From Paenibacillus sp. FSL M7-0420 (GTDB lineage Bacteria > Bacillota > Bacilli > Paenibacillales > Paenibacillaceae), in NCBI RefSeq assembly GCF_038002345.1, contig NZ_JBBOCJ010000001.1, positions 1,488,001 through 1,552,000 on the forward strand: DNA of 64,000 nucleotides. Direction: 5' to 3'. Shown here piece by piece: positions 8,867 to 58,483 of this stretch (its first letter is position 1; each line of letters begins with the position of its first letter). The notes beneath the pieces were generated by a model that was not told the origin of the DNA, did not search any database, and worked only from the letters and a program-made list of their open reading frames with translations. Both the position numbers and the translations under genes were made by a program.

Positions 8867-8917
8867 CCAGCCTCAGTCCAGATCCGCCAGATTGAAATAA
8901 TGAAATGACGAAATAAC

Positions 8918-8953
8918 AAAGAACCAAGGGAATCCGTTCCTTTGGTTCTTTCT
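8918..8953 (+). terminator. Rho-independent terminator after the ABC exporter
   Basis: AAAGAACCAA at 8918-8927 pairs with TTGGTTCTTT at 8942-8951; flanking A and T tracts would make it work in both directions. Confidence 0.75.
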
Positions 8954-9061
8954 GCATTTAATTTCCGCATGATAAATTGCCATAGATCACAGACATACAG
9001 GGATATTGTGGGATAAAATAACAGGAAATAGAGATTTAATCATGTATCCAGGAGGGATTAA

Positions 9062-9403
9062 ATGAAGACCAGAGGCAAGTTGCAGGTCGTTGCAGGTTTT
9101 CTTATGCTGGCGGCTATCATTACCTTGCACGATGTGCTGGAGAATCAGACGCTGAGAATCGTATTATCGATCACTGTAGCGGTAGCCGCTGCTTATTTTC
9201 TTTCCAAAATCAGTCTTCCGAAGCAGGTATCCGGCAGAACGATGACAGTAGCGTTAGTATCACTGCTGATATTCACTTGCGCATACCATATCCTTTTGTC
9301 CGTAGTTCTGGAGCAGAGTATATTTGCTAATGGCTTTTGGATGTTCTTATGCGTAATTTATTTGTTAATCTGGATGCGTGTCCGGCTAAGCCTCTCAAGA
9401 TAA
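9062..9403 (+). CDS. Small integral membrane protein of unknown function
   Basis: This 113-residue protein, with an AGGAGG site upstream of ATG 9062, is almost wholly hydrophobic. Four membrane helices are likely at about 8-27, 33-50, 60-83 and 88-108, with short charged turns and a basic C-terminus (RVRLSLSR). I do not recognise a family. It stands alone between the ABC exporter terminator and a convergent small gene. Confidence 0.65.
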   Translation: MKTRGKLQVVAGFLMLAAIITLHDVLENQTLRIVLSITVAVAAAYFLSKISLPKQVSGRTMTVALVSLLIFTCAYHILLSVVLEQSIFANGFWMFLCVIYLLIWMRVRLSLSR

Positions 9404-9447
9404 CGGCAGCCGCTTGCATTGGAAGCAGCCGGAACAGCAGTCTGGGA

Positions 9448-9738
9448 TTACTCCGCAGAAGGCAGCTGGGCGCGTAGCGTTTTCTTTTTGTTAATCTCCT
9501 TGGACAGCTCTAGCTGCTGCTGGGAGATTTTTTTGAGTTCGGCCTGCAGCTTGGTAATGCGGCTCATTTTACTGCTGAGGGAGCTTGGGGATGAGCTTAG
9601 CTTGCAGTCTTTTTCCAGCTGGTAGATCTTGAGCTTGGTCTTGCGGGTCTTCTTCTGCAGCTCTGTAATACCAGCTTCCATCTCTGCGATCTCCTGGTTT
9701 AAACGTTCCAGCACCGGTCTTGTGAAATTAATAGCCAT
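9448..9738 (-). CDS. Small coiled-coil protein of unknown function
   Basis: This 96-residue protein has no recognised family. Residues about 8-50 and 58-90 are rich in Leu, Lys, Glu and Gln with heptad spacing (RLNQEIAEMEAGITELQKK and LQAELKKISQQQLELSKEI). They are separated by a Ser-rich hinge (SSSPSSLSSK), so it is likely a helical hairpin. GAGGTG precedes ATG 9738. It is soluble and may be a scaffolding or spore-related protein, but nothing supports a specific role. Confidence 0.6.
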   Translation of the reverse strand: MAINFTRPVLERLNQEIAEMEAGITELQKKTRKTKLKIYQLEKDCKLSSSPSSLSSKMSRITKLQAELKKISQQQLELSKEINKKKTLRAQLPSAE

Positions 9739-9817
9739 TCGGGCACCTCTTACTTTTCTTAATAATATGCAGTCAGGATATCATTGTACTATAAGCGCTA
9801 CGTATATGCGAGGGTGC

Positions 9818-9857
9818 AGAAGAAGACCCGTGGAGTGCGCTCCGCGGGTCTTCTTCT
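9818..9857 (-). terminator. Long hairpin terminator after the DHA2 exporter
   Basis: An 18-base stem runs from AGAAGAAGACCCG at 9818 to CGGGTCTTCTTCT ending at 9857, closed by GTGGAG-TGCG-CTCCGC. It lies just downstream of the minus-strand exporter gene. Confidence 0.75.
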
Positions 9858-9897
9858 GTCTGCAGCCTCTGAAACAGCACAGCATCAGGTGCTCTCC

Positions 9898-11391
9898 TTA
9901 GACTTCCTCAGCGACAACAATCTTCTGCTTCACACCCGGTTCTTTGGCCTGCCCCACCTGCTTAATGAAGAAGGAGAGGATCAGCCCGATTATTCCGATG
10001 CCCACAATAATCAGATAGGAATCGTTGATGCCCTGGATGGAAGCCTCCATGACCATATGCTGCTGAGTCTCGCCGGCAGCTCCGCCGCTGGCTGCGAGTT
10101 CCTGGAAGTGGGTGGCGGTACGGCTGGTCATCACGGTGACCAGCAGAGAGGTACCTACTGCGCCGGCAACCTGCCTTACGGTATTGGAGATCGCTGTACC
10201 ATGTGAATTCAGCCTGGAGGGCAGCTGATTCAGCCCGAGGGTCTGAATAGGCATCAGCAGCAAGGCCATTCCGATCCGGCGGCCGGTGGACATCAGCATC
10301 AGATAACTGTAGCTTGTCGAGTCTGTAAGATTCACGAAGCTGAGTGTAGTCAGAATCGTGATCGTCAGGCCGATAATGGCGAGCCATTTCGCTCCGAAGC
10401 GGTCGAACAGCTTGCCGGTGACCGGCATCAGCGCCCCCATAATCACCGCGCCGGGCAGCAGCAGCAGGCCGGATTCCATAGCGGTGAAGCCGCGAGCATT
10501 CTGCAGATAGAGCGGCAGCAGCATCATATCCGCATACATCACAATCGTAACCGCCACACTGATGACGGTGGTCAAGGAGAACATATTGTATTGGAAGGCC
10601 CGCAGATCCAGCAGCGGGCTCACGGAGGTGAGCTGCTTCCATATGAATAATCCTAGCGACACGGCGCCGGCGGCCAGCGACAATAGCACCTCTGCGCTGG
10701 ACCAGCCAGCACTGGCTGCCCGGCTGAAGCCGTAGAGCAGGGTGCCGAATCCGATGGTGGACAGGATTACGCTGGTGATATCGATTTTGGGAAAAGAACG
10801 CTCGGCCACATTTCTCAGATAAATAAAACCGCATACGATGACCATAACCGTGAGCGGAAGCATGCCGTAGAACATCATCTCCCAAGAATAACGCTCCATA
10901 ATATATCCGGCCAGCGTAGGGCCGATGGCCGGGGCGAAGATAATAGCCAGCCCGACCATCCCCATGGCGGCGCCTCTTTTCTCACGCGGGAAGAGGGTCA
11001 AAATAACCTGGGTGAGCAGCGGCATGATAATGCCGGCACCGGCAGCCTGAATCATCCGTCCGGTCAGCAGCACCGGGAAGCTTCCCGCGAGCGCCGATAC
11101 AAGGGTACCCGCAAAGAAAATAAACATCGAGGCCTGGAACAGCTCCCGTGTAGTGAAGCGCTGCATCAGATAGGCCGTAATGGGAATCAGCACACCGTTA
11201 ACCAGCATATAGCCGGTAGTGAGCCACTGGGCCGTGGCCGCCGTAATATTGAAGTCATGCATCAGCTCCGGTGTAGCCACGCTCATGATGGTCTGATTTA
11301 GTGTAGCCAGAAAGGCACCCAGAATCATTACGAAAAGAATAGGTCCCTTGGAAATGGATGGGGCTTCTTTGCTTGCTGTCTTGTTACTCAC
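9898..11391 (-). CDS. DHA2-family (EmrB/QacA) multidrug MFS exporter
   Basis: This 497-residue protein has about fourteen hydrophobic segments. Motif A variants typical of the 14-helix DHA2 drug:H+ antiporters are visible, as are LNQTIMSVATPELMHDF near the first helix and the motif C region PAIGPTLAGYIMERYSWEMMF. Start is GTG 11391 with AAGGA nine bases upstream. It exports cationic or lipophilic drugs in characterised homologues such as EmrB, QacA and LmrB. A TetR regulator is divergently transcribed 235 bases away, and paired TTTACA sites lie between them, so drug-inducible derepression is likely. The drug cannot be predicted. Confidence 0.92.
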   Translation of the reverse strand: MSNKTASKEAPSISKGPILFVMILGAFLATLNQTIMSVATPELMHDFNITAATAQWLTTGYMLVNGVLIPITAYLMQRFTTRELFQASMFIFFAGTLVSALAGSFPVLLTGRMIQAAGAGIIMPLLTQVILTLFPREKRGAAMGMVGLAIIFAPAIGPTLAGYIMERYSWEMMFYGMLPLTVMVIVCGFIYLRNVAERSFPKIDITSVILSTIGFGTLLYGFSRAASAGWSSAEVLLSLAAGAVSLGLFIWKQLTSVSPLLDLRAFQYNMFSLTTVISVAVTIVMYADMMLLPLYLQNARGFTAMESGLLLLPGAVIMGALMPVTGKLFDRFGAKWLAIIGLTITILTTLSFVNLTDSTSYSYLMLMSTGRRIGMALLLMPIQTLGLNQLPSRLNSHGTAISNTVRQVAGAVGTSLLVTVMTSRTATHFQELAASGGAAGETQQHMVMEASIQGINDSYLIIVGIGIIGLILSFFIKQVGQAKEPGVKQKIVVAEEV

Positions 11392-11430
11392 TATTCTTCA
11401 TCCTTTCAAACCGCCAACTCATGGACTAAA

Positions 11431-11531
11431 TTTACAATGTGTCGTATAGTTTACAATGTATAAAGTAGATTATAGATGAAAATATCATGTAATCAAGCAA
11501 CGATTTTCGGGAAAATGTAAATTAGTTTACA
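11431..11531. promoter_or_regulatory. Probable TetR operator region
   Basis: TGTAAATTAGTTTACA at 11516-11531 is a perfect inverted repeat (TGTAAA, four bases, TTTACA). Two direct copies of TTTACAATGT start at 11431 and 11450, close to the exporter start. They share the TTTACA half site, so the regulator may bind at several points. This is inferred from position and symmetry. Confidence 0.6.
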
Positions 11532-11626
11532 CTTAGAGGACATGTGTAGTGTATGTAGTAAAAAAACGACACTTTCGAGTGAAATTGTAGCCTGCACTTG
11601 GGCAGCACAGATTGGAGAGAACAGAA

Positions 11627-12208
11627 ATGACGAATTCCGCCGAGCGGACAGATCCGCGTGTCCTTCGTACACGCCAATTTCTTAAAGAGGCTCTAATAGA
11701 GCTGATGGAAGAGATGAGTATTGAGAAAATTACCGTCAACCGCCTTGCGCAGCGGGCCCAAATTAACCGTGTGACCTTCTATCTGCATTACCGGGATATC
11801 CCGGATATGCTGGAGAAAATGGCGGATGATATGGCTGAGGAGGTTCTGGAAGTGGTGAGAGAGGATCCGGACTTTATGGAAGCCGCACAGCAAGAGAAGT
11901 GGCCGATGCTGGAGCACCTGCTTGTGCATATTGCAGAGAACGCCAAATTCTACAAAATCGTACTTACATCGCGGAAGAGCACGATATTTACCGACCGGCT
12001 GTTTAAACTGATGGCAGACATTATTTCTGCACGGGTGGAGAGCAGGGTTAGCGCGCATGACGCTTCTGAAGTAACGGTACAGAAGGACATTGCTGTGTGG
12101 TATGGCTCGGCGGCCCTCATTGGTACCATCATCGCCTGGCTTCGGGAGGATATGCCGTATACGCCGCAGTATCTGGCCAAGCAGATCACTTCGCTACGGG
12201 CGAATTGA
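11627..12208 (+). CDS. TetR/AcrR-family transcriptional repressor
   Basis: This 193-residue protein has an N-terminal helix-turn-helix (about 10-55) with ALIELMEEMSIEKITVNRLAQ and INRVTFYLHYRDIPDMLEKM, the TetR signature. The C-terminal three quarters is an all-helical ligand domain resembling TetR_C_7-type proteins. I place the start at ATG 11627 because GGAGAG stands seven bases upstream; an in-frame TTG at 11612 overlaps that site. It is divergent from the DHA2 exporter and most likely represses it until a drug binds. Confidence 0.9.
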   Translation: MTNSAERTDPRVLRTRQFLKEALIELMEEMSIEKITVNRLAQRAQINRVTFYLHYRDIPDMLEKMADDMAEEVLEVVREDPDFMEAAQQEKWPMLEHLLVHIAENAKFYKIVLTSRKSTIFTDRLFKLMADIISARVESRVSAHDASEVTVQKDIAVWYGSAALIGTIIAWLREDMPYTPQYLAKQITSLRAN

Positions 12209-12327
12209 TTGCCGGAGGCAGATCAGGAAGGCTCCACAGGTCCAAGAGCAGCCAATTCCTCCCGCATATAAATAGTAGAGACTACTATGTATTCTGAAGC
12301 TATTTTGATGAGGTGGGGTGGTGCGAG

Positions 12328-13155
12328 ATGAAGAGACGGGCAAGACCGGCACGGAAGCGGGGGCTTCGCGCCAAGCGGCAGGCTGTACCCGGAGTGAAGC
12401 GCAGAATCAAGGTGCAGACAGTTGAATTTGCGGTGTTTGGTGACAGTCACGTGGGATATGGGAACAGCTTGAGCATCTTTAAGAGTCTTTTGCCTAAGGC
12501 AGTGGGCAGCGGGAACAAACGGTTTATCATCTTCGGGGGAGATAACACCCAGGCGGGGGCGGATCACGGGAATAACGCCGGGACGTACTATAAGGAATTC
12601 AAGGACACCGTTACCAGTACGCTGGGAAGCATCCCTTACAAGGCGTCGATCGGGAATTGGGAGGCCAGCACACGGTCGTTGTTCACCCAGTATTTAGGGG
12701 CGGTGGCCGGACAGATGAATTTCCCGGGAACGCAGGGCAAGGTGAGATATGTATGGCTGGATTGCGCACTGGGGCAATTCACGCCGGCCAGCCTCAATCT
12801 GCTGCGTAATCTGGATGACAGGTATTTCTATATTATTGATTTCCATTGGCCGCTGCGGGTGCAGGGCATTACGGTGGATTCCAGCCATGTGCTCAGCGCG
12901 GCCGAGACCTCCAAGTTCTTCACGGCCATTCCGGCAAAAGCCAGAGAGAAGGTGCTGGCGATCTTCACTCATCACGGGCACAAATTCTACCGGAAGCTGA
13001 ACAACATCTATCCGGGGTACACCAAGACCAAATTCTTCGTCACCGGCTGCTCCGGGGACTACAAATGCAAGCCCGGCGGGAATATGGGCTACTATAACGC
13101 CACATTAACCAGCAGCGGGCCAGGCTATAAAGTTGAGGCTTATATCGCGCACTGA
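12328..13155 (+). CDS. Metallophosphoesterase-fold protein
   Basis: This roughly 275-residue protein starts with a very basic stretch (RRARPARKRGLRAKRQ), then a calcineurin-like phosphoesterase core. The metal motifs are FGDSHVG, FGGDN and THHGH. The usual GNH(E/D) motif reads IGNWE, with Trp in place of the catalytic or metal-binding His. The family hydrolyses phosphodiesters or phosphomonoesters with a two-metal centre; the substitution may alter activity. ATG 12328 is chosen over the upstream in-frame GTG 12313 because the GGTGGGGTGG site fits it. No signal peptide is evident, though the basic N-terminus could contact nucleic acid or the membrane. Confidence 0.75.
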   Translation: MKRRARPARKRGLRAKRQAVPGVKRRIKVQTVEFAVFGDSHVGYGNSLSIFKSLLPKAVGSGNKRFIIFGGDNTQAGADHGNNAGTYYKEFKDTVTSTLGSIPYKASIGNWEASTRSLFTQYLGAVAGQMNFPGTQGKVRYVWLDCALGQFTPASLNLLRNLDDRYFYIIDFHWPLRVQGITVDSSHVLSAAETSKFFTAIPAKAREKVLAIFTHHGHKFYRKLNNIYPGYTKTKFFVTGCSGDYKCKPGGNMGYYNATLTSSGPGYKVEAYIAH

Positions 13156-13184
13156 GGGGCTAAGGGAATGAGACATAGCAGCGG

Positions 13185-13216
13185 GAGAGTGTCGTGAAGA
13201 CATTCTCTTTATTTTT
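13185..13216 (+). terminator. Rho-independent terminator
   Basis: GAGAGTGTC at 13185-13193 pairs with GACATTCTC at 13199-13207 with one G-U pair, followed by TTTATTTTTG. Confidence 0.8.
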
Positions 13217-13239
13217 GGGCGGGCGTCCTGGCGGTAAAC

Positions 13240-13269
13240 TTGACAGCCCTTTCATGGGTTGGGTATGGT
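13240..13269 (+). promoter_or_regulatory. Sigma-A type promoter for the SDR gene
   Basis: TTGACA at 13240-13245 and TATGGT at 13264-13269 are 18 bases apart, about 64 bases before the SDR start. Confidence 0.55.
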
Positions 13270-13332
13270 TTAACAATACCGAATAATAAAAGTCATCAAT
13301 ACAAATAGAATTACGACAGGAGGAACAATACA

Positions 13333-14031
13333 ATGAATATTCTAATTACAGGGGCGGGACGCGGACTGGGCCTTGAATTGGCGGCAGCTGCGCTGGAGCG
13401 TGGACATGCTGTTATTGCCGGGGTGCGGGATCTGACGCGCGGGCAGGCAGCATTAGCTGATCTGGCGGCAGTATACGGGGATAAGCTTACTCTTGTGACG
13501 CTTGATGTGACGGACGAGGCCGGAATAGCAGCGCTTGCTGCCAGCCTGACAGAGCAGGCCCGGACACTCGGCGTCATCATCAATAATGCCGCAGTGCTGA
13601 ATGCCACGGACACCGCACTTGAAGCGCTGGATATGGAAGAGATGCAGCGTGCCATGGATATCAATCTGTACGGGCCGATGCGGGTGGTCAAGCACCTTCT
13701 GCCGCTGCTGACCGGGCCGGATGCTTCAATCATCAATATCTCATCAGAGGCAGGCAGTATCACCAATGCTTACCCGGGCAGCTATCCGTATACGATCTCC
13801 AAGACCGCGCTCAATATGTTCACGCAGAAGCTCCATGTCACGCTGAAGGACCGCGGCATCCATGTGCTCAGCGTCCATCCCGGCTGGATGCCTACCGATA
13901 TGGGCGGAGCTAAGGCACCGCTTCACCCGCGCACCAGTGCCGAAGGCATTCTGGACCTGATCGGGCAGAGAGCCGAGCCGTCCGGCCATTTCAGATTCGT
14001 GGATTACACGGGTGAGGATATGGATATCTAG
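13333..14031 (+). CDS. Short-chain dehydrogenase/reductase
   Basis: This 232-residue protein is a classical SDR. The NAD(P)-binding loop is TGAGRGLG near residue 6, NNAAVL stands near 80, a catalytic Ser in INISSEAGS near 138, and YPYTISK (Tyr and Lys) near 151. The SYPYTISKTALNMF segment and HPGWMPTDMGG are like those of the C-factor/carbonyl reductase-type SDRs. AGGAGG precedes ATG 13333, with its own promoter and a terminator upstream, so it is a single-gene unit. The substrate is unknown. Confidence 0.88.
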   Translation: MNILITGAGRGLGLELAAAALERGHAVIAGVRDLTRGQAALADLAAVYGDKLTLVTLDVTDEAGIAALAASLTEQARTLGVIINNAAVLNATDTALEALDMEEMQRAMDINLYGPMRVVKHLLPLLTGPDASIINISSEAGSITNAYPGSYPYTISKTALNMFTQKLHVTLKDRGIHVLSVHPGWMPTDMGGAKAPLHPRTSAEGILDLIGQRAEPSGHFRFVDYTGEDMDI

Positions 14032-14056
14032 CTGGGCATCTCCAGCACTTCACCTG

Positions 14057-15268
14057 TTAAGAGGCAAGTGGTGTGGTGATTTTCTCGTCCGGTGAGCGGC
14101 GGGGCCAGAGCAGCAATCCCAGTGAGCAGACTACCAGAACTACGCAGAGCAGGTAGGAATGGCGGTATCCTAACCACTGGGCTGCGGCTCCTCCCGCCAG
14201 GCTTCCGGCCAGTCTGCCGATGGTTGTAGCATTGGTATACAGCGTGGAGGCATAGCCGGGAAGGTCCGGCAGCAGATCCTGAATATAGCTGATGCCAATT
14301 GCAGAGATCACAGCGACAAAAAAAGCCAGCAGCACCTGTCCGGCGATGAGCTGCCACAGCTCACCTACTCCGATTACCAGCGCATAATAGATTCCCCCCA
14401 TTGCCATTCCCCAGCCCAGCAGCACCTTGCTGTCGTATTTGGCTGACAGCAGCCCCAGCACCAGCATGAACGGAATTTCCATTAACGCACAGATACTGGC
14501 CACCGAAGCTACATTCTGTGTAGTACCTCCCAGCGTATTGACAATAAACAAGGAGATATTCAGACTATTGGCCCAGTGTCCGGTATAGAGCAGGGTCAGG
14601 ATGAGAAAAGGAACCAGTACCCTGGCGCTGCGTTGCAGCCCGGACGGCTGCTGGATACGTCTGTGGACCTGCTGCTTAGCGGCTGGAGGCCGTACGAAGC
14701 TGAACACCAGAAGGGCATTGAGCAGGAAGATCAGAGTGGTCGATGAGAAGATCCCCTGAAATCCGAAGCGGCTCAGGAGTGCGGCTCCTACCAGCGGACC
14801 GCTGATGAAGCCAAGGGAGAACATCGAGCGCAGAGCCGAGTTAGCCAAGGCATGATCAGGAGAGCTGCTGGCGCTCACAGCTTCTCTGGCACTGGCGAAT
14901 AATTGCGGCATCGCCGGGGCGCCTAATGCGGTGAATATGGTCATATAAGCCAGCAGCGGGTAGAAGTCATGGATGAATATGTATCCGGCAAAAGCAACGG
15001 CGTTGAACATCATACAGATCACCATCAGCCTGCGGCGGTTCAGCCCGGCGTCGGAGCGTTTGGCAATGAACATGCTTAAGGCTACTCCGCTAAGGAGCGT
15101 CACCGCTGTAAATATTCCGAAGGTTCCGGCACTGACACCGAGTTCTTCTGTGAAGTAGACCGCCAGGAATGGAGCGCTGATAGAGATGGCCATTCCCTGG
15201 AACAGCATGCAGAGCAGGAATATAGGGTAGGTTGGAATGAGGAGCAGAGCATAGGTTCTTTTGAGCAT
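14057..15268 (-). CDS. MFS transporter, sugar efflux (SET)-like
   Basis: This 403-residue protein has twelve hydrophobic segments. The first reads IPTYPIFLLCMLFQGMAISI, and FIAKRSDAGLNRRRL forms the loop between helices 2 and 3. The overall pattern resembles SetA/SetB sugar efflux transporters. These export lactose, glucose or glycosides and relieve sugar-phosphate stress in characterised cases. The gene is convergent with the SDR gene and ends 25 bases from it. It is divergent from the GH3 gene, which may hint at handling of glycosides. Drug efflux is an alternative. Confidence 0.8.
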   Translation of the reverse strand: MLKRTYALLLIPTYPIFLLCMLFQGMAISISAPFLAVYFTEELGVSAGTFGIFTAVTLLSGVALSMFIAKRSDAGLNRRRLMVICMMFNAVAFAGYIFIHDFYPLLAYMTIFTALGAPAMPQLFASAREAVSASSSPDHALANSALRSMFSLGFISGPLVGAALLSRFGFQGIFSSTTLIFLLNALLVFSFVRPPAAKQQVHRRIQQPSGLQRSARVLVPFLILTLLYTGHWANSLNISLFIVNTLGGTTQNVASVASICALMEIPFMLVLGLLSAKYDSKVLLGWGMAMGGIYYALVIGVGELWQLIAGQVLLAFFVAVISAIGISYIQDLLPDLPGYASTLYTNATTIGRLAGSLAGGAAAQWLGYRHSYLLCVVLVVCSLGLLLWPRRSPDEKITTPLAS

Positions 15269-50375: not shown

Positions 50376-51698
50376 TTATGCTACTCTGTAGACGAAGCTA
50401 ATGGCGGATTTGCTACGTATTCTGCGTGTATTCCTTTGCCCAGGACGGGTGAGACGAATCGGCAACATATTTTTGCGAATCAAAGCTTCCACATCAGGCG
50501 GGGGTCCATCGCCCTTGGAGCGCAGGAAATGTCTACAGACGTGAACGGCCACCGTGAAGTTGACTTGGTAGAGGTGCCGTTTATCCTTTTGGGAAATGAC
50601 TACGTGCGAGGTAATCATTTCAGCGAAATTGTAGAGGATCATTCTTGCGAATATCTCTTGGGTAATGGACTCTTGCTTCTTTGCGTGAAAATGGGTCAGA
50701 CCGATGGTGTATTTTAAGGCCCGGAAAGAGGTCTCAATCCCCCATCGCAGGTGATACAGTTCCCGGAGTTCATCCGGTGAGAATTCAGCAGCCGGTAGAT
50801 TGGTAATGACGGTTTCATAATCGCCACTGGGCAGGAGGAAACGAACCACCCGAAAGGAAATCGGGTAAAACAGGTTCTTTTGCATGTCCAGAAAATCAAA
50901 GCTAGAGGTGGCCGGAAGAATTTTATAGATTTCGGGGTGATCCCTGAACGCTTTCGTTCGTTTTTTAGTCAGCGTCAGGTGAATCTCCTGATCAAACGCC
51001 CCTTCAAAGGTCAAGTGCAAGCCCGAAAGAATGCCATTCGAATGCAAATCCTTGACCCGTATGACGTACTTCCATCCTTTCCGTTCCAGATGCGCGAACG
51101 TATTGTAGCTTTCCAATCCTCGATCCGCCAACACAATGACGTTCCCCTGAATAGGGGACCGATCCACCATCGTGGACAGCGCCCTTCCTTCGTTGCGCAG
51201 CTTTCGAGGTTGAAGGATGGCGTCCACGTAAAGCCGGTTACAGAGGTCATAAGCAGCGTTCAAGTGCAGAAGGTTAAAGCCTTTCGAGTGGGGCTGACTT
51301 TGAGAATAGGTCAACGGGTCCGCAGGATCTGTTGCAATATGCAGATCGGAACCGTCAATGGCCAATAATCGATAGCCTCGATAATCCTTGAATTCCGTAT
51401 GGGACGCGGTAAAGGTGTGAAACAAAGATTCGACCGCAGACGGCAAAATTTTATTTCTTTGCTGAACAAAAGCAGAAGAAGTTGCGGTGTTAACGTCATA
51501 GCCCTGCGATTCCAACAGTTCCTTATAGAGGCTGTTGCCGCCCATAAAGATCAGGGTTTGCATAACCATTTCAAAGGGTAGTTTTTTCGTTCGGGTAAAA
51601 TCCTTTCCCGGGTTTCTGACGTAAGGCGCGGGGGCAGCCGCCATCTCACGGATGAGAGATGTCAGTCTGTCTTTCAGCGAATTTGCATAAGCATTCAT
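50376..51698 (-). CDS. IS4-family DDE transposase
   Basis: This 440-residue transposase has the RNase H-like core with Asp in LAIDGSDLHI (about 115), Asp in VIVLADRGLES (about 192), and the YREK signature YHLRWGIETSFRALK (about 318-332) that supplies the catalytic Glu. The frame is unbroken and GAGGAGG lies nine bases before ATG 51698, so the element may still be active. The subgroup was not determined; an 8-base duplication is compatible with several IS4 subgroups. Confidence 0.95.
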   Translation of the reverse strand: MNAYANSLKDRLTSLIREMAAAPAPYVRNPGKDFTRTKKLPFEMVMQTLIFMGGNSLYKELLESQGYDVNTATSSAFVQQRNKILPSAVESLFHTFTASHTEFKDYRGYRLLAIDGSDLHIATDPADPLTYSQSQPHSKGFNLLHLNAAYDLCNRLYVDAILQPRKLRNEGRALSTMVDRSPIQGNVIVLADRGLESYNTFAHLERKGWKYVIRVKDLHSNGILSGLHLTFEGAFDQEIHLTLTKKRTKAFRDHPEIYKILPATSSFDFLDMQKNLFYPISFRVVRFLLPSGDYETVITNLPAAEFSPDELRELYHLRWGIETSFRALKYTIGLTHFHAKKQESITQEIFARMILYNFAEMITSHVVISQKDKRHLYQVNFTVAVHVCRHFLRSKGDGPPPDVEALIRKNMLPIRLTRPGQRNTRRIRSKSAISFVYRVA

Positions 51699-51810: not shown

Positions 51811-51848
51811 CTTGTTTTTGGCTCTATATCTTAACTTAATGACATTGG

Positions 51849-51985
51849 CATTATTGCACCTGATTTCGGAGAAAGTCGGCGGAATGAGCGAATGAGGAGC
51901 ATTAGTGCACCTGATTTCGGGGAAAGTGGGCGGAATGAGCGAATGAGGAGCACTAGTGCACCTGATTTCGGAGAAAGTTGGCGGC
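51849..51985. repeat. 51-bp repeats, type D, continuation beyond the insertion sequence
   Basis: Cores lie at 51849-51857 (CATTATTGC, completing the unit split by the element), 51899-51908 (GCATTAGTGC) and 51950-51959 (GCACTAGTGC), 51 bases apart. Each is followed by ACCTGATTTCGG, AAAGT and GGCGG. Removing the element and one duplication restores a continuous array with the units to the left. Confidence 0.9.
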
Positions 51986-52176
51986 AGGTGCGGTTAACCG
52001 CTTCTATCTACTTATTGCAAGAGTAATTGGAAACTTCTATTTTCCTGCTTTTTATATCATTTAATAGATTATTTCCTATTTTATGACTTTTATCATAGTT
52101 GTCCATCAGGAAAAGTTTTACATTATTTACAAGTTAGTAAATGCAACTCTATCAGTCCTGAGGAGGAAGAGGGCGT
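51986..52176 (+). other. AT-rich leader of the RiPP cluster
   Basis: The stretch from the repeats to the first radical SAM gene is visibly AT-rich compared with the neighbourhood. I found no consensus promoter that I would defend; candidate -10-like words are TATCAT near 52091 and TACATT near 52119. GAGGAGGAAGAGGG ends the region. Confidence 0.35.
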
Positions 52177-53559
52177 ATGAGAGTGTCTAAGTATAACTTC
52201 AAACACAGATTAAGCGATGATGTTCTGCTGATCATGAATACATTAACCGGAGCTGTAGACTTGGTTGAGCCCAAGGTAGCCCGTGTTCTTTTTAATAGAA
52301 GCTCCGATACATTTGCATTAAACGATCTGGACCCGGAAACGCGTACCCTGCTTAAGAGCAGAGGGTACCTCACGGACATGAACGAAGAACAATATGTCCG
52401 TGAATCACTAGAAACCTACTACCGCTCTCATCCGGCCTTACAATTCACAATCTGCCCCACCTACAAATGCAACCTCGCCTGCCCTTATTGCTTCCAATCG
52501 GACATTCACCAGGACTCGCCGACGCTTGACCTTGCACAGATTAATGAGATATTTCAGGCGATGGATCAGATGGTCTATCAGCAGCCTGAGGCGGCCGTCC
52601 AGTTCGAGCTGTTCGGCGGCGAGCCCTTCCTGGCCCGTAATCAATCTCAGGTGGAGTATATTTTACAGCAGGCTATTGAGCGGAGTTGGCCTATTCTCTC
52701 CATTACGAACGGTACCGAGCTCGGTGCGTATTTCCCTTTTCTGCAGAAGCATTCGGCGCATTTCCGCCATATGCAAATCACACTGGACGGCCCGAAGGAG
52801 ATCCACGACCAGCTGCGTAAATACAGGAACAACAGCGGCAGCTATGATCTTATCTGCTCGAACATTACTTTTCTTCTGGAGCACCATATACCCGTAACCG
52901 TCCGAATCAACACAGGCCGGGAGAATGTCCGGCATTTGCCGGAGATGTTCGCCGGGTTCGAGCGGCTTCAGTGGACAAGCTCACCGGATTTCTCCTGCCA
53001 GATTGCCCCGATCAATGATAATTTCAATACGGGGAAGGTTGCCGGCTTCCAGCCTGAATCTGATCTTCTGAAGCAGCTTCATGTACTCTTCCCGGATTGG
53101 GAAGCCACCCGGCGCAGGTATAAGGTCAGCCTGGGGTATTTCATGGAGAAGAAGCTGCGGATACTCCGCAAAGCTATGTTTGACACAGACGATGACCACT
53201 ATTACTTCGATCTGTCCGGCTGCAGTGCTTCAAAGCGTCATAATCTCGTATTTGGTGCAGACGGGCGGCTGTATCCTTGTGTAGAAACCGTCGGATTCCC
53301 GGATTATTCGATTGGAAGCTACCTTCAAGGGCTGCAATTGGATGAAGAGAAGTGGCAGAGATGGCACCGGGATATCGTGGTGAATGACAAATGCAGTCAC
53401 TGTAATCTTGCGCCTCTCTGCGGGGGCGGCTGCGTACTGAAAGGAAGCAGAGACGGGGAATTAAGAGATTTCGAATCGAACTGCAGCGATACAAGGCAAT
53501 ATCTGAAGACCTATCTCGATCTTCACCGGGACCGTCTGCTCGAAAGCTATTGCCAGTGA
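52177..53559 (+). CDS. Radical SAM/SPASM peptide maturase (first paralogue)
   Basis: This 460-residue protein has three parts. Residues about 1-80 form a small N-terminal domain (FKHRLSDDVLLIMNTLTGAV) resembling the recognition domain at the start of many peptide maturases. The radical SAM barrel has its cluster motif C98-x3-C102-x2-C105 (CNLACPYC) and FELFGGEPF. A C-terminal SPASM region holds two auxiliary Fe-S clusters (C in GCSASK, LYPC, C406 and C409 in KCSHC, C415 and C419 in LCGGGC, C436). Such enzymes form thioether or carbon-carbon crosslinks, or epimerise, in precursor peptides. The 44-residue precursor gene starts 70 bases downstream. It is paralogous to the enzyme at 53841, with cluster cysteines at identical residue numbers. 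Confidence 0.93.
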   Translation: MRVSKYNFKHRLSDDVLLIMNTLTGAVDLVEPKVARVLFNRSSDTFALNDLDPETRTLLKSRGYLTDMNEEQYVRESLETYYRSHPALQFTICPTYKCNLACPYCFQSDIHQDSPTLDLAQINEIFQAMDQMVYQQPEAAVQFELFGGEPFLARNQSQVEYILQQAIERSWPILSITNGTELGAYFPFLQKHSAHFRHMQITLDGPKEIHDQLRKYRNNSGSYDLICSNITFLLEHHIPVTVRINTGRENVRHLPEMFAGFERLQWTSSPDFSCQIAPINDNFNTGKVAGFQPESDLLKQLHVLFPDWEATRRRYKVSLGYFMEKKLRILRKAMFDTDDDHYYFDLSGCSASKRHNLVFGADGRLYPCVETVGFPDYSIGSYLQGLQLDEEKWQRWHRDIVVNDKCSHCNLAPLCGGGCVLKGSRDGELRDFESNCSDTRQYLKTYLDLHRDRLLESYCQ

Positions 53560-53628
53560 ACTCCATTACCCTGATGTCAAGGTATTTACCTTGCCATAAA
53601 TATTCTTAGAGGAGAGGAGGTAATGTAC

Positions 53629-53763
53629 ATGAAATCACTGACGAAGAACAAGGATCTCTGGACGAATCTCTCAGCCAAAGACCTTGAAGAAATTACGGTT
53701 CCAATGGCATGTTGCCAGAAAGCATCCATTCAAATCAACAATCCTGCCAAAAAAGCCATCTAA
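53629..53763 (+). CDS. RiPP precursor peptide, 44 residues
   Basis: A short frame encodes a peptide starting MKSLTKNKDLWTNLSAKD and continuing LEEITVPMACCQKAS, then IQINNPAKKAI and stop. The AGGAGG at 53615-53620 lies eight bases before ATG 53629; an in-frame ATG at 53623 is too close to it. The first about 22 residues are charged and helical, with LSAKDLEEI, like leader peptides of modified peptides. The tail has vicinal Cys28 and Cys29, a hydrophobic and Asn-rich stretch and a basic end, so the core is probably about residues 24-44. It lies between two radical SAM/SPASM genes and before a stable hairpin, the classic place for a precursor. The product class (sactipeptide, ranthipeptide or other) cannot be fixed from sequence. 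Confidence 0.85.
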   Translation: MKSLTKNKDLWTNLSAKDLEEITVPMACCQKASIQINNPAKKAI

Positions 53764-53786
53764 CAGCATCCTTATATTTGGGAAAT

Positions 53787-53817
53787 AGCGGGAAGCGCAT
53801 CCTTATGCCTTCCCGCT
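53787..53817 (+). terminator. Hairpin downstream of the precursor gene
   Basis: AGCGGGAAG at 53787-53795 pairs with CTTCCCGCT at 53809-53817, and an inner GCAT/ATGC extends the stem. Only a short GTTC follows, so it may be a partial terminator or an mRNA stabiliser that raises precursor output relative to the enzymes. Confidence 0.6.
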
Positions 53818-53840
53818 GTTCATACCAGGGGGGATAGACA

Positions 53841-55211
53841 TTGTATATTTCAGAATATATTCTTACGTATCGCTTAAGAAACAGACGTCATCTTATCTTC
53901 AATTCCTTGTCAGGCGCAATGGATATTGTGGAAGAGCATATCAGCCGGTTCCTCCAGAAACAACAGCCTGCTGCCTATTCTCTCACCGCTGAAGAAGAAC
54001 AGTTTCTGGCCGGCAGAGGTTATCTGTACAGGGAGCGTGAAGAGGAGCAAGCTCTGATCCGCCGGTACCAAGAATACCAGGATCAGCATGGATCAGGTGA
54101 CATTTCCTTTGTGTTCTGCCCTTCCATGACCTGTAATTTGAAATGTGTCTACTGCTTTGAGCCCCAAGAGATCCGCTCCAGCCATGAACGGATGACTGAA
54201 GATCAGGTGCAGGCTGCCTTCCTGGCCATGGATCAAATCATGCAGCAGCAGCAGTCTACCCGGCATCATTTTGTTATTTTTGGCGGAGAACCGCTCCTGC
54301 CCCTGAACCGCTCCATCGTCAGGCTTATTCTTGAGCAGGCCCAAGCAAGGGGAATCACAGGAACGGTCATATCAAATGGGGGGTTCCTGTCACATTATCA
54401 GGAATTGCTAGAGCCTTACAAGGACATGCTCAGAATCCAGTTAACCATAGACGGCCCCCAGGCGGTCCATGACCGGCGGCGGATCACCCGGGCCAATGAG
54501 GGAACCTTTATGAAAATAACCGCTCAGATTGACTCCTTCCTGGAGCATGATTTCGACATCGCTATTCGTGTCAATCTGGATGGTGAGAATATAGAGCATC
54601 TGAATGAACTTCTGGATTTCTTCCAGGAACGGCAATGGAATGCTTACCCTAACTTCTCGGTTTCACTGTCTCCCGTTGAGAATTATGCAGGGAATTCCGC
54701 CCCGGGCCTGCTGCCCAGCTATCAGCTCACGGAATTTATCAAAGCGCATGTGCCAAACGATAAACTACAAAGGCTAAATACCACGTTAAACAGTGATCTA
54801 ACCAGACTCTCCCTGCCATTTGAGAACGTGCTGGGAACAGGTCTCGCTAAAGATAGCTATTTCCCTAACTGTTACTTTTGCGAGGCGGCCGGAGGCAGAA
54901 CATTCACCTTCTCGCCGGACCACCAGGTCTACCCTTGCACCAGTATTATAGGGGATCAAAAATGGAGTCTCGGAACGTATTACCCTCAGCTTGAGCTGGA
55001 TGAACAGAAGCTGGCGCTCTGGAAGGAACGCCATGTCTTGAATCAGCCGGAGTGTAAAGCGTGCAATATCGCTTTTCTATGCTCCGGGAATTGTCCGGTT
55101 CAAGCCGGCCGAACCACCGGTTCGATCTTAGGCGCCTACTGCGGAAATGTGAAGCGTGACCTTGACAGCCATCTGGAGCTGCTGAATGATTCATTCACCG
55201 CCTTAAGTTAA
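53841..55211 (+). CDS. Radical SAM/SPASM peptide maturase (second paralogue)
   Basis: This 456-residue paralogue of the 52177 enzyme has the same layout. Its N-terminal domain contains LTYRLRNRRHLIFNSLSGAM. The SAM cluster motif is C98-x3-C102-x2-C105 (CNLKCVYC), followed by FVIFGGEPLLP. The SPASM cysteines lie in NCYFCEAAG, VYPC, ECKAC, LCSGNC and AYCGN. The only usable start is TTG 53841 behind a G-rich site, which predicts weak translation. Having two maturases for one precursor suggests each acts on a different residue or they act in sequence, as with TrnC and TrnD in thuricin CD, although there two precursors exist. Confidence 0.92.
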   Translation: MYISEYILTYRLRNRRHLIFNSLSGAMDIVEEHISRFLQKQQPAAYSLTAEEEQFLAGRGYLYREREEEQALIRRYQEYQDQHGSGDISFVFCPSMTCNLKCVYCFEPQEIRSSHERMTEDQVQAAFLAMDQIMQQQQSTRHHFVIFGGEPLLPLNRSIVRLILEQAQARGITGTVISNGGFLSHYQELLEPYKDMLRIQLTIDGPQAVHDRRRITRANEGTFMKITAQIDSFLEHDFDIAIRVNLDGENIEHLNELLDFFQERQWNAYPNFSVSLSPVENYAGNSAPGLLPSYQLTEFIKAHVPNDKLQRLNTTLNSDLTRLSLPFENVLGTGLAKDSYFPNCYFCEAAGGRTFTFSPDHQVYPCTSIIGDQKWSLGTYYPQLELDEQKLALWKERHVLNQPECKACNIAFLCSGNCPVQAGRTTGSILGAYCGNVKRDLDSHLELLNDSFTALS

Positions 55212-55238
55212 ATCTTCTCTTACGTGAGGTGTTGGGAA

Positions 55239-57194
55239 ATGATCCAATTGATATGTCCGCCCTATAATGCAGCTGTGGATACCGTTGATCCCCCGCTTAA
55301 TCTGCTTGTGCTCGGCGCTGCACTTCTTGAAGCGGGGTACGGGGTGTGTCTCACCGATCTGGCATTACTCTATTCAGGCACCAGCCATTTCGATGCAGCA
55401 GCCCTTGCCGGTATTGCCCGGTTAATCATCGGCAAGCCATCCAGAGTGCTCGGATTCACGGCGATGTGCGGCAATTATTCGATCGCGCTGAGAATTGCGG
55501 AGGAATGCAAACGGCTGGACCCGGACAGAATCATTATTCTTGGCGGCCCCCATGCGAGCTTCGTAGCGGCCGAAACCTTGACCCATTTCCCGGCGATAGA
55601 CTATATCGTTGCCGGAGAAGGCGAGCTGACGCTGCCGGAGCTGATTGCAGCCCTGGAGTCGGGCCAACCGCTCTCAGAGGTTGAAGGAATCTGCTTCCGT
55701 GAAGAGGGGACCATCCGCACCAATCCGCCGCGGCCGATTCTGAGGAATCTCGATGATACGCCTTTCCCCGCCTTTCATCTAATAGAGGATATTGAAGCCT
55801 ATTTTACCACTCCGGAGAGCCGTTTCTTTCCGGTTGAGGCGGGGCGAGGCTGTCCTTTTAACTGCAGCTTTTGCAGTACCTCCACCTTCTTTTCACGAAA
55901 ATACAGAACCAAAAGTCCTGCCCGGATCATCGCCGAGATGAGATACGTCAGGGATCGTTGGGGAATCACCCATTTCAGCTTAACGCATGATAATTTCACG
56001 GTTAATCAGAAGTTTGTCAGACAATTCTGCCGGGAGCTGCTGGATTGCAGCGAGCCCTTCACCTGGAGCTGTTCCTCCCGGACAGACCACGTCAATAAAG
56101 AACTGTTTGAGGTGATGATGCAGGCGGGGTGTAATGGCGTTTTCTTCGGGATTGAGAGCGGCAGCCAGCCCATACAGCAGGTCATTGGCAAAAAGCTCGA
56201 TCTGAACCAGGCCTACGAACTTCTCCGCGAGCTACACCGGCTGGGTCTGTCATGTACGGCTTCATTTATTACCGGATTTCCCGAAGAGACAACCGAAGAC
56301 CTGAATCAGACGCTGGATATGATTGTCCGGCTGCTCTCCATAGGAATAGCGGATGTGCAGCTGCATCAGCTGTCCCTTTTTCCCGGGACCCAATTATTTG
56401 ACGCAGCGAAGGACAGCCTGGTGCTGGACGGGCAGTTCTGGAGCACGAACGATATGAACAGTGATTTCCAGCTATCCGGCACTGAAAAGAACTGGATTGC
56501 CAGCTACCCGCAAATCTTCAGCAACTATTACTCCTTGCGGTCTGTGGATACACATACGCTGCACAGGATCAGAAAGCTCTACTACCCGCTGGCTCGTTCG
56601 TTCTTCCGCACCTTGTATTATCTCAATCATCTGGCGGCTGTATCATACACCCGTACAATCGATTATGTCTCAACCAGGCTGGATATCCATGGGGCAATGC
56701 CCCAAGAAGCGGAGCTGGCCCTCATTCTTGATGAGCTGGTGCAGGGTCTTGTGCCGGAAACCGGGCGGGTCCTTAAGGACTTCCTGTCTTATGAGCGTGC
56801 GGTGATGGAATTGATGCAGCAGGATACAGCACCGCAGGACACAACTGCTATGAAGCCTGTCAAAGTGATGCAGCCGCACTATTCCATCCCTGCGCTGAAG
56901 CTGCACAGTCCCCTTCCGGCAGAGCTTGAGCTTGCGGAAGGGCATGAAGATTGGATTCTGCTGGTGCTGGAGAGCGCACCGGCTCTTGAAGGGCGCAGGC
57001 GCTACGTCCGGGTGATGAGCATGGACCCTTTAAGCATTGCCATTATTCAACAGATGGAGGGCGGGAGCGACTTCCGGACGGTTGTACACAACCTGGCGTT
57101 AGAGAATCCTTTTGCTGCCAGCGAACAGGATCGGCAGGAATGGATCAGCCGGGTGTACGACCATTTCCATACGCATGAATTGCTGACTTCCTAG
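55239..57194 (+). CDS. Cobalamin-binding-domain radical SAM enzyme with PqqD-like C-terminus
   Basis: This 651-residue protein has an N-terminal B12-binding fold (about 1-145, IQLICPPYNAAVD and IIILGGPHASFVA). The radical SAM core has C205-x3-C209-x2-C212 (GCPFNCSFC) and the GVFFGIESGS and SFITGFPEET strands. A helical region follows. The last about 65 residues (DPLSIAIIQQMEGGSDFRTV through YDHFHTHELL, cited in parts) read like a PqqD-type peptide recognition domain. Class B enzymes of this kind methylate unactivated carbons or rearrange peptide side chains. ATG 55239 is taken as start with GAGGTG seven bases upstream; a GTG at 55224 is in frame. The recognition-like end supports action on the precursor at 53629. 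Confidence 0.87.
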   Translation: MIQLICPPYNAAVDTVDPPLNLLVLGAALLEAGYGVCLTDLALLYSGTSHFDAAALAGIARLIIGKPSRVLGFTAMCGNYSIALRIAEECKRLDPDRIIILGGPHASFVAAETLTHFPAIDYIVAGEGELTLPELIAALESGQPLSEVEGICFREEGTIRTNPPRPILRNLDDTPFPAFHLIEDIEAYFTTPESRFFPVEAGRGCPFNCSFCSTSTFFSRKYRTKSPARIIAEMRYVRDRWGITHFSLTHDNFTVNQKFVRQFCRELLDCSEPFTWSCSSRTDHVNKELFEVMMQAGCNGVFFGIESGSQPIQQVIGKKLDLNQAYELLRELHRLGLSCTASFITGFPEETTEDLNQTLDMIVRLLSIGIADVQLHQLSLFPGTQLFDAAKDSLVLDGQFWSTNDMNSDFQLSGTEKNWIASYPQIFSNYYSLRSVDTHTLHRIRKLYYPLARSFFRTLYYLNHLAAVSYTRTIDYVSTRLDIHGAMPQEAELALILDELVQGLVPETGRVLKDFLSYERAVMELMQQDTAPQDTTAMKPVKVMQPHYSIPALKLHSPLPAELELAEGHEDWILLVLESAPALEGRRRYVRVMSMDPLSIAIIQQMEGGSDFRTVVHNLALENPFAASEQDRQEWISRVYDHFHTHELLTS

Positions 57195-57226
57195 GGTGAC
57201 AATACCGAAAGAGAGGGGGCCTTGCT

Positions 57227-58483
57227 TTGTGGAGTATGCTGAAGAACGGAGTGTTCCGCCGGTTATGGTGCACGCAGACCTTATCCTCTGTAGGAGATGA
57301 GATCAGGAACTGGGCCATCCTGTTCTGGGTATTTGCGGAAGCGGATCAAGCTGTCTTTTACCGGACGGCTCTTTTGTTTGCCCAGATGCTCCCGGTCTTT
57401 ATCATGGCTCCTCTTGCCGGAACATGGGTTGACCGCAGGAAACCAAAGAAGGTGCTGCAGGCGACACTGGTGATCCGGGCTGCGATGTCTTTTGTACTGG
57501 CCGGATTAATCTGGATGGAGCAGGTGCCGCTTTTGCTGGTCATGCTGGCCTTCACGTGTACGGTTCAGCAATTTTTTCAGCCCGCCATCAGTAAATTGAC
57601 GGTTACGGCCGTGGACAACGAGGATTACGGTACAGCCAGTTCCTCAGTGAAGACGGTTGATACGCTGATCAGTCTTGCCGGTCCTGCGATCGGAGCCTTT
57701 GTCTATGAGTGGTGGGGGGCCTCTACTTCTTTAATTGTGGACGGCTTTTGTTTCATCGCTGGCAGCCTGTTCATTCTGAGTCTTAAGGTGAGCCCGGCCC
57801 CCCTGGCAGCACCCTCCGGTTCCGGTCCGGCAACCTCCTTTTGGGTGGATGTCCTGGAAGGCTTCCGGTATATCTTCGCTTCTGCGCTCACCAAACGCTT
57901 ATTTATCATGTTGGCGGTAATGGGGGCGTGCACAGGGGCGATTAATCTGTTAAACATCTATTTCGTGGTGAAAGAGCTGCATTTAGACCAGAATTACTTA
58001 GCCTGGGCAAGCACCGCCGGGGGCATCGGTATGTTCGCGGGGGCGCTCGGTCTGAACCTGCTTGGGGCGAAATTCAAAAATTATGTGCGAATTAACATTT
58101 GGGGAGCAGCGGTCATGACGCTGGGACTGTTGCTGCTCACGCTCTCCTTCGGCTCCTGGTCGATGCTGCTCAGCCGTGTCATTATCGGGATTGGCATCTC
58201 CCTGCTGAGCATTACGCTGTCGACTCTGTTAATGACCTATGTTCCTGAGAACCTGCTCGGCCGCGTCGGTTCCGTGTTTGAAGGCGGCCCGCTGGCGACC
58301 AATATGTTGTCTTATCTGTTCTTCGGATGGTTGTATGTGTACACTGGCGCCAGATGGATCTTCGGTATCTCCACTATGCTATTCTTCATGGCGTTTCTGC
58401 TGGCCCTTAGCCTTCAGTCTGTACTCTCCCCGGCCCGGAGAGTCCGTGCCGAACAGCAGGAGTTCATCAGCCCGTCCCAGTAA
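57227..58483 (+). CDS. MFS exporter of the RiPP cluster
   Basis: This 418-residue protein has twelve hydrophobic segments, with loop AGTWVDRRKPKKVLQATLVIRA (motif A region) between helices 2 and 3. It resembles the MFS_3/enterobactin-macrolide exporter class. It is the last gene of the cluster, 32 bases after the cobalamin-type enzyme. Start is TTG 57227 behind GAGAGGGGG, or the in-frame ATG 57236. It probably exports the mature peptide and may give self-protection. No dedicated protease gene is visible, so leader removal may use a housekeeping protease. Confidence 0.88.
   Translation: MWSMLKNGVFRRLWCTQTLSSVGDEIRNWAILFWVFAEADQAVFYRTALLFAQMLPVFIMAPLAGTWVDRRKPKKVLQATLVIRAAMSFVLAGLIWMEQVPLLLVMLAFTCTVQQFFQPAISKLTVTAVDNEDYGTASSSVKTVDTLISLAGPAIGAFVYEWWGASTSLIVDGFCFIAGSLFILSLKVSPAPLAAPSGSGPATSFWVDVLEGFRYIFASALTKRLFIMLAVMGACTGAINLLNIYFVVKELHLDQNYLAWASTAGGIGMFAGALGLNLLGAKFKNYVRINIWGAAVMTLGLLLLTLSFGSWSMLLSRVIIGIGISLLSITLSTLLMTYVPENLLGRVGSVFEGGPLATNMLSYLFFGWLYVYTGARWIFGISTMLFFMAFLLALSLQSVLSPARRVRAEQQEFISPSQ

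Follow-up and report, generated by a model that had tools for sequence, protein, structure and literature searches.

The window analysed here, a stretch of 64,000 nucleotides (nt) from the 7.67 Mb genome of Paenibacillus sp. FSL M7-0420, carries a cassette of five adjacent genes encoding a short cysteine-containing peptide, three radical SAM enzymes and a transporter. A sequence-only reading had proposed this arrangement, and the open reading frames (ORFs) were indeed found side by side, all on the + strand, at 52177-53559, 53623-53763, 53841-55211, 55224-57194 and 57227-58483. That they form a cassette for a ribosomally synthesised and post-translationally modified peptide (RiPP) seems to us hardly open to doubt.

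The first gene, mat1 (52177..53559, 460 amino acids), and the third, mat2 (53841..55211, 456 amino acids), encode radical SAM/SPASM peptide maturases. In an alignment, each showed the CX3CX2C motif (at residue 98 in mat1) and all seven SPASM cysteines, and both passed the TIGR04085 SPASM domain model (51.1 bits for mat1 and 47.7 bits for mat2, with a cut-off of 27), in agreement with the initial assignment. In the five cassettes used in the tree described below, the radical SAM and SPASM cysteines were intact in 10/10 maturases. In the case of mat2, the predicted structure showed an N-terminal domain of three strands and three helices that appears RRE-like, ahead of the radical SAM core.

The fourth gene encodes a B12-binding radical SAM enzyme, as seen in Pfam (PF02310, 54 bits, and PF04055, 90.5 bits, both above cut-off), with the B12-binding domain preceding the radical SAM core; the predicted fold agrees with this order. 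The protein most likely starts at 55239 (55239..57194, 651 amino acids) rather than at the GTG that would give 656 amino acids. The PqqD-like end that had also been ascribed to it stands less firmly than these two domains: Pfam called no PqqD-like domain at the C-terminus of the window protein, and it is the relatives and the predicted fold that point to a C-terminal part (about residues 438-651) which is probably RRE/PqqD-like. A sequence search of the PDB with this part gave two chance-level matches only, and one with the protein P0034 matched its radical SAM parts alone. The last gene (57227..58483, 418 amino acids) was assigned to the MFS transporters by both Pfam and NCBIfam and is read as an exporter, as had been expected.

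The family comparisons with NCBIfam cover the best 25 families listed per protein. Among these, no named maturase family (TIGR04463, TIGR04280, NF038107, PapB, SCIFF and others) reached its cut-off, the best scores being 121.1 of 400 for mat1 and 137.5 of 525 for mat2, and no B12-enzyme family reached its own. The best-scoring model for the B12 enzyme was ApyD (NF050148), with 338.7 of 750 bits over residues 20-439 counted from 55224. Since every such cut-off among those listed was missed, the cassette was assigned to no named maturase family.

Between the two maturase genes lies the precursor gene (53629..53763), encoding 44 amino acids, or 46 if read from the ATG at 53623. The second ATG, at 53629, is the more likely start, because the AGGAGGT ribosome-binding site, read directly at 53615..53621, is 7 nt ahead of it and only 1 nt from the first ATG, and because residue 2 is variable and the homologue in the genome G080 begins at that methionine. 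The window peptide in the alignment is MKSLTKNKDLWTNLSAKDLEEITVPMACCQKASIQINNPAKKAI. A peptide of 40-44 amino acids was found at the same place in 9/9 cassettes; the sequence-only reading had counted on such a peptide, and our search for homologous clusters without it between the maturases returned none. Identity to the window peptide was 93-100% in close copies, 61% in Paenibacillus sp. HW567, 48% in G618 and about 40-44% in G080. Two motifs were constant among the cassette peptides, MKxL..[LI]W[TS]xLSxK in the leader and ACCx[KN][AV][STK][IV] in the core; the length of the tail varied, and both motifs were kept while the three enzymes dropped to 37-44% identity. Codon comparisons of the window gave proportions of synonymous and nonsynonymous differences (pS/pN) of 0.29/0.03 against the locus L002 and 0.47/0.22 against L003. 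Thus, the peptide is under purifying selection. A chance ORF is ruled out by conservation, selection and exact co-occurrence with the enzymes.

NCBIfam and Pfam gave no match for the three cassette peptides scanned, and other peptides gave weak matches only, the best being FlaF (E 0.0009) with a peptide of the second family described below. A protein search with the peptide returned two relatives among 5.8 billion proteins. In the precursor records P0001 and P0002, the frame switches after ...NPTKK, as if a run of six A were short by one A, which reflects either a sequencing error or genuine variation in tail length.

A hairpin was found between the precursor gene and mat2 (53784..53820, + strand; z -4.2 for 53764-53841), and it recurs at the same place in five folded relatives. 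In the window, L001, L002 and L003 the z values ranged from -3.5 to -4.3, and in G080 (z -4.1) and G618 (z -4.0) a hairpin of other sequence takes this place. An Rfam search gave no match. The hairpin is a probable partial terminator or mRNA stabiliser, and a peptide gene followed by a hairpin is the layout that would be expected where a precursor is made in excess of its enzymes.

To describe the distribution of the cassette, mat2 (E <= 1e-40) and the peptide (E <= 0.01) were searched against genome sets. mat2 matched 13/100 Paenibacillus genomes, of which eight carry mat1 and mat2 in a cassette (G000, G043, G046, G050, G055, G080, G084 and G086) and the remaining five have other SPASM enzymes only. 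The peptide search alone yielded 8/100 genomes, identical to the eight cassette carriers. Seven of these eight cassettes consist of the same five genes, as do those of three relatives from a related-locus search, P. silagei, P. piscarius and Paenibacillus sp. HW567, which are probably among the eight. At the family level, 18/394 genomes matched mat2, the extra five with other SPASM systems. The B12 enzyme was found in 7/392 order, 2/398 class and 1/398 phylum genomes, the window's own being counted each time; these three sets are samples, and G080, absent from the order matches despite an above-threshold B12 enzyme, was probably not drawn. The sampled 392 order and 398 phylum genomes gave no match outside the genus set, and the class match, G618, a genome of another family, provided the ninth cassette.

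In G080 (L033) and G618 (L077) the gene order is mat1, peptide, mat2, a TPR-type protein, the B12 enzyme, a CPBP (Rce1-like) membrane protein and the MFS protein, the TPR and CPBP domain names being derived from the G080 proteins. Identities to the window were 43% for mat1, 44% for mat2, 40% for the B12 enzyme and 39% for the MFS protein in G080, and 41%, 37%, 38% and 29%, respectively, in G618. Between these two genomes, the TPR proteins are 28% and the CPBP proteins 34% alike. The flanking genes differ among the window, HW567 and G080. Because the flanks vary and the divergent cassettes keep the five genes, these are the conserved core. With eight carriers among 100 genus genomes, plus G618, the set is a real unit. 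In P. piscarius (L046), by eye, the cassette is inverted beside the same flanking genes when compared with the window and L042-L045. Further afield, Brevibacillus laterosporus has a relative of the B12 enzyme (P0020, 42% identity over 80% of the query), and a plasmid search with mat2 gave 133 records, the best 20 of which were all below 30% identity.

Important insight was gained from a second family of adjacent SPASM pairs, detected in G039, G084, G144, G283 and G284 (loci L034, L035 and L056-L058). Its precursors, identified in a comparison of small ORFs, contain ...LWTxL... and have vicinal cysteines near the C-terminus, e.g. CCWNCCFQI or CIDCCFQI. Both families thus have in common paired SPASM enzymes, an LWTxL leader and Cys-Cys. 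Unlike in the cassette, the peptide of the second family sits outside the SPASM pair, and the annotated loci L034, L035, L056 and L057 gave no B12-enzyme match. Of the two families, only the cassette family combines its peptide with a B12 enzyme and has [AV]x[IV] in the core. From this contrast between shared and first-family features we infer that Cys-Cys is the target of the SPASM pair, and an aliphatic residue that of the B12 enzyme. In L034 (G039, 7068-14696) the SPASM pair is followed by a daptide-HExxH-like protease (108.1 of 300 bits) and, by eye, ABC genes. G184 (L059) encodes a second-family peptide at 9536-9691 (LWTEL ... CCFQPWTCC) with one SPASM gene detected alongside; the ORF upstream looks transposase-like by eye, so that loss of a second SPASM gene is conceivable.

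A contrast is offered by L038, L039 and L040, where nine small Cys-rich ORFs lie beside single SPASM genes: Cys-Cys and the Trp motif are both absent from these ORFs. In each of these loci (L038 at 9635-10235, L039 at 10006-10550 and L040 at 9530-10131) the single SPASM gene is followed by three such ORFs, most with good ribosome-binding sites and with a common ...ELxER... leader.

Besides cassette enzymes, the trees included 11 (larger tree) and 4 (smaller tree) of 32 listed homologues, near-identical cassettes and the G284 pair being left out. mat1 and mat2 each formed one clade (100/100 each, larger tree). mat1 grouped with the second family's enzyme B (92/92 in the larger and 96/96 in the smaller tree), a grouping that was first noticed in the larger tree and thus not predicted blind. 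A recent tandem duplication of one maturase is disfavoured, as mat1 and mat2 held as a clade gave a p-value of 0.010 in the approximately unbiased test (p-AU) and mat1 groups with enzyme B. The constraint placing mat2 with enzyme A was not rejected (p-AU 0.146). The trees support mat1 and mat2 as old, separate enzyme lineages.

Altogether, we propose the following pathway, which taken as a whole we regard as the probable explanation. Roughly the first 24 residues of the 44-amino-acid precursor would form its leader, with a short core located around ACCQKASIQINN, and RRE-type peptide-binding domains of the modifying enzymes would bind the leader motif MKxL..LWTxLSxK. Cys-Cys, which is invariant, would then be the site of action of the SPASM pair, probably working in a complex or one after the other; this assignment we make with some confidence. 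The product would most likely carry thioether crosslinks from the cysteines to residues just downstream, namely [AV] and [IV] of ACCx[KN][AV][STK][IV]. This thioether proposal was made because the highest-Z fold neighbour is CteB and the Cys-Cys dyad is strict; the preference for a thioether over every other bond is tentative. The B12 enzyme would most likely C-methylate one conserved aliphatic residue, methylation being a reasonably probable role for it. Finally, the leader would be removed by a host protease, no protease being encoded in the five-gene form of the cassette, and the MFS protein would export the product, a step that we consider quite likely.

Overall, the RiPP reading is strong and the chemistry moderate, and the structural neighbours do not settle the latter. 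Several observations weigh against the proposed chemistry. Firstly, SuiB and anSME follow CteB closely in Z for the predicted fold of mat2, and the Z of TglHI is weak. Secondly, the small ORF near the single SPASM gene of L060 shows Cys-Cys but no Trp motif, and at L036 no Cys-rich ORF was noticed. Because of the close Z values, L060 and the weak TglHI match, we slightly lowered our confidence in the dyad as target, in the thioethers, in the overall pathway and in the superfamily reading given below, and slightly raised that in carbon-carbon bonds.

The rival explanations are not mutually exclusive. One SPASM enzyme could form the crosslinks alone and the other be a leader-binding helper, as TrnD largely is for TrnC (PMC12093266), which would leave a single kind of crosslink. 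Apart from this precedent, such a split fits the joint presence of mat1 and mat2 in 9/9 cassettes. It agrees less well with their separate orthologous clades and with the intact cysteines of both maturases in the five cassettes of the tree; yet TrnD is likewise an active radical SAM enzyme, so that this conservation is also compatible with a helper. We judge a helper to be unlikely, though worth keeping in mind. As for the B12 enzyme, a C-C or C-S crosslink, or a part as electron or structural partner, in place of methyl transfer is doubtful. PbsB is described to crosslink ortho-tyrosines (PMC12257519), and the reactions named for this class of enzymes include the formation of C-S bonds and cyclisation (PMC10635010, PMC13331322); however, the window core has no Tyr or Phe, and ApyD, the nearest named relative, methylates C-beta (PMC10635010), while TmoD methylates as well (PMC11002830).

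Rather unlikely in our view is that the SPASM enzymes form carbon-carbon bonds on the conserved Val/Ile, e.g. cyclopropylglycine as in TvgB, with the cysteines free, in a disulfide or metal-binding. Against this stands the strict conservation of Cys-Cys, which is found again in the second family, where the cores do not follow that Val/Ile pattern, and the window core offers no aromatic residue for a cyclophane. Very unlikely is a carrier or cofactor precursor, like that of pyrroloquinoline quinone (PQQ) or mycofactocin, instead of an exported natural product: the small peptide with few modifiable residues and the PqqD-type domain suggested in the B12 enzyme would suit it, but the sporadic presence in 8/100 genus genomes, the movable cassette with variable flanks and the MFS gene in 9/9 cassettes suggest a secreted specialised product, and none of the cassette proteins was recognised as a dehydrogenase by Pfam or NCBIfam. 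A full-length protein encoded elsewhere as substrate of the maturases is not supported, as the peptide is the sole gene found between them in 9/9 cassettes.

Several known systems resemble parts of the proposed pathway. In the case of thuricin CD, TrnC and TrnD are described to act together, as a complex, on each precursor, and thuricin CD and thuricin Z share with the cassette two radical SAM maturases per pathway and short Cys-containing precursors (PMC12093266). The window cassette, by contrast, has a single precursor with vicinal cysteines, adds a B12 enzyme as the third radical SAM protein and includes an MFS exporter; no family model was reached. Bicyclostreptin likewise has two radical SAM enzymes, HghB and HghC, with one precursor, HghA, but its core is His-Gly-His, and the cited passages name neither a B12 enzyme nor a Cys-Cys motif for it (PMC11002830). 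Ruminococcin C is also described with two radical SAM enzymes, RumMC1 and RumMC2. 'Cluster 115' of a SPASM network combines 3 to 5 radical SAM enzymes with a precursor with conserved cysteines; by its description it differs in an Asp-Cys motif, at least three cysteines and a peptidase plus hydrolase, and the cited passages mention no B12 enzyme (PMC9062424). The aminopyruvatide enzyme ApyD, which modifies a RiPP precursor and has an RRE fused to it (PMC10635010), is a B12 radical SAM enzyme like the window protein, where the C-terminal RRE-like part is probable; the window enzyme stays below the cut-off of the ApyD model. A search of the five cassette proteins with Pfam and NCBIfam gave no MNIO, which is class-defining for aminopyruvatide, no P450 and no separate methyltransferase. 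The ranthipeptide maturase CteB (5wgg/5why), the solved fold with the highest Z for the predicted structure of mat2, aligned with nearly the whole protein; it differs in having only about 20% identity to mat2, and the window precursor is not of the SCIFF type.

Therefore, the claim that the combination falls outside described families was borne out only in part: two radical SAM enzymes per pathway were already known, whereas no description of a single Cys-Cys peptide served by a SPASM pair together with a B12 enzyme was found in the open-licence PubMed Central (PMC) literature, covered largely at title and abstract level. On this literature result and the lack of a peptide model in NCBIfam and Pfam rests the case for novelty, and the prospects of an undescribed class within the radical SAM RiPPs are good. 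A further-reaching interpretation, possible but well short of probable, is that the cassette represents the B12-bearing branch of an undescribed RiPP superfamily, in which the SPASM pair would be an obligate duo recognising the LWTxL leader and forming adjacent, possibly differing (alpha-, beta/gamma-) new thioether rings on vicinal cysteines, with the B12 enzyme C-methylating the ring-closing residue.

Radical SAM enzymes of RiPP pathways form bonds that are difficult to make by chemical means. In the cassette, three of them, each from a distinct lineage, apparently act on one 44-amino-acid peptide that offers few candidate residues, so that their division of labour should be directly readable. 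Comparing the cassette with the B12-free second family yields predictions as to the site of action of each enzyme. Further clusters of this kind, in Paenibacillus and related bacteria, could be sought through the combined signature of LWTxL and Cys-Cys.

Some minor observations concern the surroundings. Just upstream of the cassette, a 440-amino-acid ORF at 50376-51698 (- strand) resembles a DDE transposase by eye, and L001 has no such ORF there; short near-identical intergenic repeats lie at 51830-51990, likewise just upstream. Elsewhere in the window's genome, at L004 (G000:C1:1018000-1034500), five radical SAM matches were found within 10 kb, three of them HemN-like and two with B12-type N-termini by eye, adjoined by regular repeats which resemble a CRISPR array.
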